From positions 122,270-186,269 of the forward strand of contig JANYAV010000012.1 in assembly GCA_025361145.1 (NCBI GenBank): a stretch of DNA of 64,000 nucleotides, written 5' to 3'. The notes under the pieces were generated by a model that worked only from the letters and a program-made list of their open reading frames with translations, was not told where the DNA came from and made no database searches. Below, piece by piece: positions 20,672 through 24,312 of the stretch. Origin of the DNA: Dehalococcoidia bacterium. Lineage in GTDB: Bacteria > Chloroflexota > Dehalococcoidia > Dehalococcoidales > UBA3254. The first letter of the stretch is position 1, and every line of letters begins with the position of its first letter. The position numbers were made by a program, and so were the translations under genes.

Positions 20672-21358
20672 CTATTTTATCTTGGACAGTGCAGCCTTCG
20701 CAGCTTCCATTTCGGCCAGTTTTTTACTTTTTCCAGAGCCATGCCCCAGAACTTCTTCCCCTGCACGCACCTCGACTTTAAATTGTTTTAGATGCTCCGG
20801 TCCTACCGCCTCAATCAATACGTAGGTGGGGGTGATCTGTTCTTGAGCCTGCAAGATTTCCTGTAATTTTGACTTATAGTCTGTTCCTGCCCCCCGGTGC
20901 GCTTGTTGGTATATCTCAGCTCCGAAAAGGCCAAGGATGAAGCTTCTGGAGCGTTCTAGGCCCTGATCCAGGTAGATGGCGGCAATTAAAGATTCAAAAG
21001 CCCCAGACAGATTGGCTGATTTGTCTTTTCCGCCTCCCGTTTCCTCGCCAATGCCAAGTGTGAGGTAATTACCAAGATCGATCTTGCGGGCCATCTGGGC
21101 TAGTGTTTCACGCCGTATTAACGCTGACCGCAGACGGGTCAGATCGCCTTCCGGAGAGTTGGGGAAGTCTTGGTAGAGTTTTTCAGCGATTATAAGCCCA
21201 AGGACGGCATCGCCCAGGAATTCAAGACGTTCATTGCAATCTACCGTTAGGCTGTGATTTTCATTGATGTAGGAACTGTGGATAAGAGCCAATTCAAGAT
21301 AGGCCACATTGTGAAAGCTGAGGCCTATTTTATTTGCAAATTCTGCAAGATCAGCCAC
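20672..21358 (-). CDS. rnc: Ribonuclease III
   Basis: NERLEFLGDAVLGLIIAE; GDLTRLRSALIRRETLA; C-terminal dsRBD. Note D->G at the second metal-binding Asp position. Confidence 0.95.
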   Translation of the reverse strand: MADLAEFANKIGLSFHNVAYLELALIHSSYINENHSLTVDCNERLEFLGDAVLGLIIAEKLYQDFPNSPEGDLTRLRSALIRRETLAQMARKIDLGNYLTLGIGEETGGGKDKSANLSGAFESLIAAIYLDQGLERSRSFILGLFGAEIYQQAHRGAGTDYKSKLQEILQAQEQITPTYVLIEAVGPEHLKQFKVEVRAGEEVLGHGSGKSKKLAEMEAAKAALSKIK

Positions 21359-21377: not shown

Positions 21378-22580
21378 TTATTTGTTGTCGACCAGTGCCC
21401 TTTGAAAAACCGCTACGGCCCTTTCCAGAGTTTTATCATCTACGCAGTAGGATATTCTGAAGTAGCCAGGTGCTTGGAATTCACTTCCGGCGACGGTAAG
21501 GACGAGTTGTTTCTTGAGCTCAGTAACAAAGGCCTTATCGTCTCTGGTCGGGCTTTTTACAAGCATAAAGAATCCACCTGCCGGTTTTACCACTTTATAG
21601 CCCAAACCAACCAATTTTCCAAACAGAAAATTGCGTTTTCTCTGATAATCTTTAAGATATACCAGAGTTTCAGGTAAGCGCCTTACCACGTTCTGTATGA
21701 GCGCAGGACAGTTAACAAATCCCAGCGTTCGGTTGGTGTGAATCAGTGCGGCGGAAACTTCTTTGCCTCCTTCACAATCAGGATGGATAGCTGCGTATCC
21801 AATCCTTTCGCCAGGTATGCAAAGTTCGCTCGAGTAGGAAGAAAGGGCAATCGTGTTTACATAATGATTAAACATGTGCGGATATGTTATTCCATCAAAA
21901 ATTAGACGGGAATAGGTCTCATCGCTAACGGCATAAATAGTGGTATTTAGTTCAGTGCCCCTCCGGGACAGGACATCTGCGATGCCTTTCAGTGTTTCGG
22001 CGCTGTAAACCAATCCGGTGGGATTATTGGGCGAATTGATAATAATCGCTTTAGTTTCAGGTGTGATAGCTGTTTCCAAAGCCTTAAGATCGGGCGTGAA
22101 ATCATCGTTAGTTGGGATTACTTTACACACGCCGGAATAATTTTCTAAATATGGGACATATTCAGGGTAAAACGGAGAGAAAACGATAAGTTCTTCGCCG
22201 GGATTAAAAATTCCTTTGAAAATAATATTTAAAGCGCCGCTGGAGCCGCAGGTCATGATAACGTTATCCGAACTGAAATTAAGTCCTGTCTCTAGTTTTA
22301 ACCGTTCTGCCACCATACTTCGGTTAGCCATAAACCCGGCGTTTTCCATATAGCGGTGCTTGCCGGGCTGTGGTAGTTCTACGAAGTTCTTTAATACCTC
22401 AACGAATTCCGGGGGAGGGGCCATGAGAGTGTTACTGACGGAAAGATCGAAGACCTGTTCTTTACCGTAGTTGTTCTGTAAGATTTGGCTTTCTTCAGCC
22501 GATTTGGTGGCATAATTTGACCTGGTAATTCCTCTTTTAATATTCTCGGCAATCGGCATCCGGTTATACCTTCCAATCAA
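21378..22580 (-). CDS. Aminotransferase class I/II-like protein lacking the canonical PLP lysine
   Basis: Fold-type I motifs NSPNNPTG, SDETY, PGERIGY; SYSS in place of S-x-S-K. Confidence 0.85.
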   Translation of the reverse strand: MIGRYNRMPIAENIKRGITRSNYATKSAEESQILQNNYGKEQVFDLSVSNTLMAPPPEFVEVLKNFVELPQPGKHRYMENAGFMANRSMVAERLKLETGLNFSSDNVIMTCGSSGALNIIFKGIFNPGEELIVFSPFYPEYVPYLENYSGVCKVIPTNDDFTPDLKALETAITPETKAIIINSPNNPTGLVYSAETLKGIADVLSRRGTELNTTIYAVSDETYSRLIFDGITYPHMFNHYVNTIALSSYSSELCIPGERIGYAAIHPDCEGGKEVSAALIHTNRTLGFVNCPALIQNVVRRLPETLVYLKDYQRKRNFLFGKLVGLGYKVVKPAGGFFMLVKSPTRDDKAFVTELKKQLVLTVAGSEFQAPGYFRISYCVDDKTLERAVAVFQRALVDNK

Positions 22581-22938: not shown

Positions 22939-24312
22939 TTACTCAGCTATAGTCCGGGTATCTCTATCCGGCATGGCGAAGATAAAGGGAATTGTAAGCA
23001 AAGCTATTACACCGGTGGATATAAAAACCACCTTAAAACCCAGTGATATATTGCCTATAAACTGCAGTATCATGGTGGTGATGGAGATACTAATAGCTCC
23101 TCCGCTGTTTCGGAACATTCCCCTGACCCCAGAAATAGTAGAAGCCCGCTGAGGCATCAGGTCAAGACAGGCATTACTTGAAGCTGGACTGGCAATTCCC
23201 ATCCCAAGTCCTATCATGAGGGTGATGACGGAGAGCATTACTACCGAGGTGATTTCTGTGCCTAATATGTTCATCTTTGAAAACTCAAATCCATATAATA
23301 GAATTCCACCGGACCCGATAATTGAACCCAGCAGCATTGGCTTGCGGTAACCCCATTTCACCAGGAAATAACTGCTGGTCATTGACGCCACAATGAAGCC
23401 GATTGATCTGACCATTAATACAAAAGCGCTCTGAACAGTGGTCATGCCGTACACCGCAACTGCGTAGAGAGGGACAAAAGAAGTAAATCCTAAGAGACAG
23501 GCGCCGTACATGAAATTATAGATATTAGCTGCCGCGAAAGGTTTCAAGCGCAGTAGATCCAGGTCTATTATGGGGTCTCGGGTTTTCAGTTCATGCCGGA
23601 TAAACAGGACCAGGAAAACGCTGCTGGCTACAAAAATGAGACTGGTGATTAACCAGCTCGAGCCCGTTTCGCTATGAGCAGCCTGAGATAGCCAGACCAT
23701 TAAGGTAAAAAGAAACGAGCTGAACAACCCTGCCCCTGCATAATCTATCTGGACTTTGACTCTCTTATTGGATTTTAAAATGAAGAATAGGGGAATAACC
23801 GCCAGAGTAACCAGGGGCACATTAAACCAGAATACAGATTGCCAGCCGAAGGTGGTAATCAACCAGCTGCCAATATTGGGGCCAACGATCCCCCCCAGGC
23901 TGTTGATGCTCATATTTATCCCGATAACTTGCTGGCGGTGACGGGGAAACATTTCGACGATGATACCAATAGAAGTAGGCACGAAGCCACCTCCACCAAT
24001 ACTCTGGATAAAACGAGCTGCTATCAATAGTTGAATGTTAGGCGCCAGAGCCGCTAATAGTGATCCTGTTACAAAGAGGCCTGAACAAATCAGAAAAGTG
24101 TTCTTACGTCCCAGCACGTCGCTTACTTTTCCCATTAAAACCATGGAACAAGCAGCTATTAACTGATAGATGCTTAATACCCAACCCGCTAAAACCAGTG
24201 AAGTATCATAGTAGGCTGTGATATTGGGGAAAGCTACCGAGACTGCTGTGCTGCTTATCCAGGAAAGCAGCAACACCAGCTGGATACCAGCAAAGACTAA
24301 AATCGCTTGCAT
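22939..24312 (-). CDS. MFS transporter, DHA2/EmrB-QacA-like
   Basis: Many TM helices; MGKVSDVLGRKNTFL; GGGFVPTSIGIIVEMFPRHRQQVIGIN. Confidence 0.85.
   Translation of the reverse strand: MQAILVFAGIQLVLLLSWISSTAVSVAFPNITAYYDTSLVLAGWVLSIYQLIAACSMVLMGKVSDVLGRKNTFLICSGLFVTGSLLAALAPNIQLLIAARFIQSIGGGGFVPTSIGIIVEMFPRHRQQVIGINMSINSLGGIVGPNIGSWLITTFGWQSVFWFNVPLVTLAVIPLFFILKSNKRVKVQIDYAGAGLFSSFLFTLMVWLSQAAHSETGSSWLITSLIFVASSVFLVLFIRHELKTRDPIIDLDLLRLKPFAAANIYNFMYGACLLGFTSFVPLYAVAVYGMTTVQSAFVLMVRSIGFIVASMTSSYFLVKWGYRKPMLLGSIIGSGGILLYGFEFSKMNILGTEITSVVMLSVITLMIGLGMGIASPASSNACLDLMPQRASTISGVRGMFRNSGGAISISITTMILQFIGNISLGFKVVFISTGVIALLTIPFIFAMPDRDTRTIAE

Follow-up and report, generated by a model that had tools for sequence, protein, structure and literature searches.

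A class I aminotransferase homologue without the PLP lysine and its lysine-bearing paralog in one genus of Dehalococcoidales: a probable heterodimer

Introduction

Several fold-type I proteins lack the lysine that otherwise binds PLP. The glycine decarboxylase P-protein of many bacteria is a fold-type I pair (GcvPA/GcvPB, alpha/beta), where the lysine is present in one subunit only, and in the fold-type I ColD-type dehydratases the PLP lysine is naturally replaced by His. Serine palmitoyltransferase (SPT) is composed of the paralogous fold-type I subunits LCB1 and LCB2 (SPTLC1/SPTLC2); LCB1 is devoid of the lysine but carries other catalytic residues, and a single active site at the heterodimer interface has been proposed (PMC3794620, PMC6148460). 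Apart from SPT, the open-access literature searched yielded no heterodimeric aminotransferase in which one subunit lacks the lysine.

The active sites of AspAT are shared between subunits. Tyr70 binds the PLP phosphate in the site of the neighbouring subunit (PMC6612543, PMC6715241). In the Plasmodium enzyme the equivalents of Tyr70 and Arg266 of one active site are supplied by different subunits, and mutant subunits assemble together with wild-type ones (PMC6612543); in the Schizosaccharomyces pombe enzyme Tyr70 is counted among the PLP-phosphate residues and is marked, as Tyr70*, as belonging to the adjacent subunit (PMC6715241). Gene duplication leading to an impaired and a dead copy, which act together as a hetero-oligomer, has been described for the trypanosomatid DHS and AdoMetDC prozymes (PMC3663545).

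The stretch of DNA analysed here (64,000 nucleotides, hereafter "the window") stems from a Dehalococcoidia bacterium and encodes a class I aminotransferase homologue of the PRK06836 type without the PLP lysine. This gene probably codes for the non-catalytic half of an aminotransferase that works as an obligate heterodimer with a composite active site, the putative partner being a lysine-bearing paralog in the same genome. The pair resembles LCB1/LCB2 in that paralogous fold-type I proteins are concerned, one of which lacks the PLP lysine. Yet, LCB1/LCB2 belong to the alpha-oxoamine synthase family and are eukaryotic and membrane-bound, whereas the present pair is bacterial, homologous to class I aminotransferases and found in one genus, and its lysine-bearing partner is also degenerate in the half-site that it would donate. 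GcvPA/GcvPB differ by another fold-type I family and reaction, and by a split that is ancient and widespread; the trypanosomatid prozymes are eukaryotic and adopt unrelated folds. ColD needs no lysine-bearing partner for its activity; the present lysine-less proteins have Ser or Gly at the lysine position and show further losses in the pocket. The closest described relatives are the PRK06836 aminotransferases themselves, including 3ele from Eubacterium rectale, which share family, length, fold and most PLP-site residues with the window protein; in the other sampled members Lys244, Tyr70 and Arg277 all lie in one chain, which fits ordinary homodimers.

Sequence, start and fold of the lysine-less protein

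The gene lies on the minus strand, and the translated ORF (22580-21378) reads SYSSELCIPGERIGY. The mechanically listed start, TTG 22580, adds seven residues compared to ATG 22559, and a GGAAGG stretch in front of the latter is a plausible ribosome-binding site. Since the ortholog of the sister species begins with MPIADK and aligns from MPIAEN of the window protein, ATG 22559 is the likelier start. The coding sequence then extends from 21378 to 22559 (minus strand, 393 amino acids), and residues are numbered from this ATG. The residue at the lysine position accordingly is Ser244; the earlier note had identified the residue correctly but numbered it Ser251.

The window protein is matched by Pfam PF00155 (E = 4.6e-46) and, with 450.7 bits at a cut-off of 376, by the class I aminotransferase model NCBIfam PRK06836, where the sister ortholog scores 460.9 bits. 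An AlphaFold2 model of the monomer adopts the fold of fold-type I PLP proteins with a mean pLDDT of 89.9. Its nearest fold match in the PDB is 3ele (TM 0.96), many AspATs follow at TM 0.8-0.9, and 3ele is also the nearest solved structure by sequence (phmmer). Membership in the alpha-oxoamine synthase family was rejected, as PRK06836 is the best profile and an oxoamine synthase model is absent among the best 25 of 74 NCBIfam matches. The profile hence places the window protein in PRK06836, but the Schiff-base lysine of the family is missing. Judged by its sequence, the protein is a PRK06836 homologue by descent, which on its own is predicted not to form a complete aminotransferase.

Loss of the PLP lysine

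Ser244 is encoded by AGC at 21828-21830 (minus strand) and stands where the family has the lysine that forms the Schiff base with PLP (Lys258 in AspAT). This central observation of the earlier note is borne out by the ORF, by phmmer alignments in which Ser244 is paired with the lysine in both 3ele and Thermus AspAT, and by comparison with the family. The alignment comprises 84 proteins, namely 80 from outside the genus, two lysine-less and two lysine-bearing ones; all 80 proteins from outside the genus carry Lys244, and members elsewhere in the order, in the class and in other phyla invariably read S-K-[DS]-L. The ortholog of the sister species has Gly instead (SYSGELSISGERIGY). It is encoded in an independent, uncultured Dehalococcoidia MAG of the same genus (G001, AlinenSedimentsCore3), is 70% identical to the window protein and resides just upstream of rnc. 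The ribonuclease III gene rnc also lies directly downstream of the lysine-less gene in the window (20672-21358, minus strand), an adjacency that is kept between the two species; at the other loci examined rnc was not found beside a family gene.

The earlier note had argued that a single base error does not account for the serine codon, and the glycine ortholog confirms this: with Ser in the window, Gly in the sister species and intact frames in both MAGs, two different non-Lys codons exclude base error or chance. The ratio dN/dS amounts to 0.083 for the lysine-less pair, a rough value since dS (about 2.3) is near saturation, to 0.033 for the lysine-bearing pair and to 0.111 for the adjacent rnc. 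A decaying pseudogene or a sequencing or assembly error, for which nothing speaks beyond the loss of the lysine itself, can virtually be dismissed given the frame kept in two species, the ratio of 0.083, the maintained rnc adjacency and the two different codons. The window protein is a fold-type I aminotransferase homologue which is unable to form an internal aldimine and is maintained by selection.

A substitute for the missing lysine was not apparent. Within the flanking active-site segment of the alignment no Lys common to both lysine-less proteins was found, in line with the earlier note, and a compensating lysine was rejected, because the lysines that the two proteins share sit outside the segments of the active site or occur widely in the family. 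The change of the N-terminal LGNP-like motif to VSNT, also pointed out before, is real. AGT at 22434-22436 (minus strand) encodes Ser42 in place of an otherwise invariant Gly (Gly38 region of AspAT); Ser is present in both lysine-less proteins, and Gly in 80 of 80 others as well as in the lysine-bearing paralogs. The change P44T occurs in the window protein only.

A catalyst in its own right that binds PMP or PLP and needs no internal aldimine, comparable to ColD with its His, would agree with the retention of the remaining PLP-pocket residues. However, the exchange of Ser for Gly between the species leaves no conserved alternative base and disfavours an altered lysine-free chemistry, and Gly42, Ala106 and Tyr331 are lost as well, which makes such an enzyme very improbable. 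A lysine-less enzyme of the ColD type in the strict sense was rejected, as the position holds Ser or Gly and not His.

In a search of 399 Chloroflexota genomes, a sample without G001, with a degenerate motif pattern for non-Lys residues that covers codons with C, G or T as second base, the window was the sole match. A scan of genome contigs with the alignment of the two lysine-less proteins returned a lysine-less copy from the sister species only, and thus the lysine-less form appears so far to be confined to one genus.

The lysine-bearing paralog

The genome of the window (G000) encodes a second PRK06836 protein (C23:23906-25084; 45% identical, 485.6 bits), which has retained the lysine and maps to the same 186 kb contig, about 119 kb away from the window gene. 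The sister species holds an ortholog of this paralog as well, and in both species a pcrA/uvrD-like helicase gene precedes it. In the class search, at the cut-off, two PRK06836 copies were found each in G000 and G001 and one in every other matching genome, including G002, which belongs to another genus of the same family within the order. An intact copy is absent from the genus (both species). G000 also encodes LL-diaminopimelate, histidinol-phosphate-aminotransferase-like and other class I aminotransferases, each with its lysine.

Complementary losses in the two paralogs

Gly42, Tyr70, Asn73, Ala106, Phe131, Lys244, Arg277 and Tyr331 are each invariant in the 80 proteins from outside the genus. 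The two paralogs depart from this set in a reciprocal manner, a split that rests on two species. In both species the lysine-less proteins contain Ser42, Ser106, Ser or Gly244 and Phe331 but keep Tyr70, Asn73 and Arg277, whereas the lysine-bearing paralogs keep Gly42, Ala106, Lys244 and Tyr331 but contain Gln or His70, Ala or Asp73 and Gln277. Phe131Tyr is common to all four proteins of the genus and occurs in no other protein of the alignment; Asn179, Asp213, Tyr216, Ser241, Arg252, Asn283 and Arg368 are intact in all four.

The residues kept by the lysine-less protein include those that AspAT contributes across the subunit interface. Tyr70 (TAT, 22350-22352, minus strand) corresponds to Tyr70* of AspAT and is Tyr in 80 of 80 others, while the paralogs have Gln or His. 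Arg277 (CGA, 21729-21731, minus strand; Arg in 80 of 80 others, Gln in the paralogs) aligns one position from AspAT Arg292*, and from this match, one residue off, we infer a cross-subunit role. The Arg277 segment presumably also crosses the subunit interface. Asn73 is not conserved in 3ele. Among columns that are at least 95% conserved, species-shared departures in own-pocket and cross-subunit segments, respectively, number eight and one in the lysine-less pair and one and five in the lysine-bearing pair (Fisher p = 0.011, to be taken as descriptive, because the segments were fixed after the pattern had been seen); restricted to invariant columns the test yields p = 0.07.

These losses can be accommodated in a model of reciprocal specialization. 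An ancestral gene for a PRK06836-type homodimer would have been duplicated in the Dehalococcoidales genus; the window copy would then have lost residues from its pocket, the PLP lysine among them, and retained those which complete the pocket of a partner, and the other copy would have retained the lysine together with its pocket and given up the residues lent to the partner. In a hetero-pair, one site would be complete, with Lys244, Asp213, Tyr216, Arg252 and Arg368 from the lysine-bearing copy and Tyr70 and Arg277 from the window protein, and the second site would be dead, being without the lysine and without the donated Tyr. A complete site is predicted for neither homodimer. We infer that the two proteins dimerise with each other and reach full activity only as a heterodimer. 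As in LCB1/LCB2, the paralog without the lysine retains cross-subunit residues and the other one provides the lysine. The distance of 119 kb between the genes, which do not form an operon, counts against this model. On balance, it seems likely that within this one genus a class I aminotransferase passed from a homodimer to an obligate heterodimer with one composite site per dimer through reciprocal half-site loss.

The earlier note had taken the window protein for a stand-alone pseudoenzyme, sensor or enzyme of altered chemistry. The underlying assignment, an aminotransferase fold without the Schiff-base lysine, stands, but a lysine-bearing paralog with complementary losses favours a heterodimer subunit over a stand-alone role. 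Two independent homodimers, namely a lysine-less pseudoenzyme that serves as a sensor or regulator by binding PLP/PMP, an amino acid or a keto acid, and a lysine-bearing aminotransferase of altered specificity, are nevertheless conceivable, if rather unlikely. The lysine-less protein keeps Asp213 at the pyridine nitrogen, Tyr216 at O3', the phosphate-binding residues Ser241 and Arg252 and the substrate-carboxylate residue Arg368, and may still bind cofactor and ligand; changes of Arg277 and Asn73 could shift specificity, and loss of Tyr70 and Arg277 could change which substrates a lysine-bearing homodimer accepts. Independent homodimers, however, leave unexplained why the losses are split between own-pocket and cross-subunit residues, why the lysine-bearing enzyme lost the phosphate ligand Tyr70 and why the genus is devoid of an intact copy.

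Alternatively, the lysine-less protein might pair with its paralog mainly for regulation, by activation or inhibition, and its active-site residues would then be incidental. In trypanosomatids a dead paralog raises the activity of DHS about 3000-fold and that of AdoMetDC about 1200-fold (PMC3663545), but the retention of Tyr70, Asn73 and Arg277 is better suited to a donated half-site, and a mainly regulatory partner is improbable, although the two roles are not mutually exclusive.

If true, the obligate heterodimer would provide a clean natural transition from a homodimer by complementary loss, and a bacterial aminotransferase would stand beside serine palmitoyltransferase as a comparable case. 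Single-copy intact relatives exist at about 45-50% identity, both split halves are legible residue by residue, and the question of drift versus function in heteromer evolution is directly testable with two small proteins. Annotation pipelines call both proteins "aminotransferase", although according to the prediction neither would be a complete enzyme by itself.

Evolutionary history and genomic setting

In maximum-likelihood trees the lysine-less and the lysine-bearing pairs are sisters (support 97/90 and 99/93), and the grouping persists after removal of the departing columns (98/96). An AU test gave p = 0.023 against trees that join the lysine-bearing copies with other Chloroflexota and set the lysine-less ones apart. 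Since both copies sit on long stems, with 0.84 and 0.68 changes per site, the sisterhood could be due in part to long-branch attraction. The simplest account of the tree would be a duplication on the lineage leading to the genus, followed by reciprocal loss.

An MFS transporter gene (22939-24312, minus strand) is located upstream of the lysine-less gene in the window, with about 360 bases in between. The neighbour reported in the earlier note therefore exists, but a functional link was rejected, as the sister species encodes a GGDEF-type protein at this place and the neighbourhood is hence not conserved. A different MFS transporter gene is convergent to the lysine-bearing paralog in the genome of the window (G000:C23, L040:9100-10248, outside the window), and the genes downstream of the lysine-bearing copy in G001 resemble those for SDR-type dehydrogenases and a CaiB-like protein. 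Four loci from family f16 of the order (L028, L029, L097 and L106) form another long-branched PRK06836 subgroup that keeps all key residues, and thus offer a useful contrast for rate alone.
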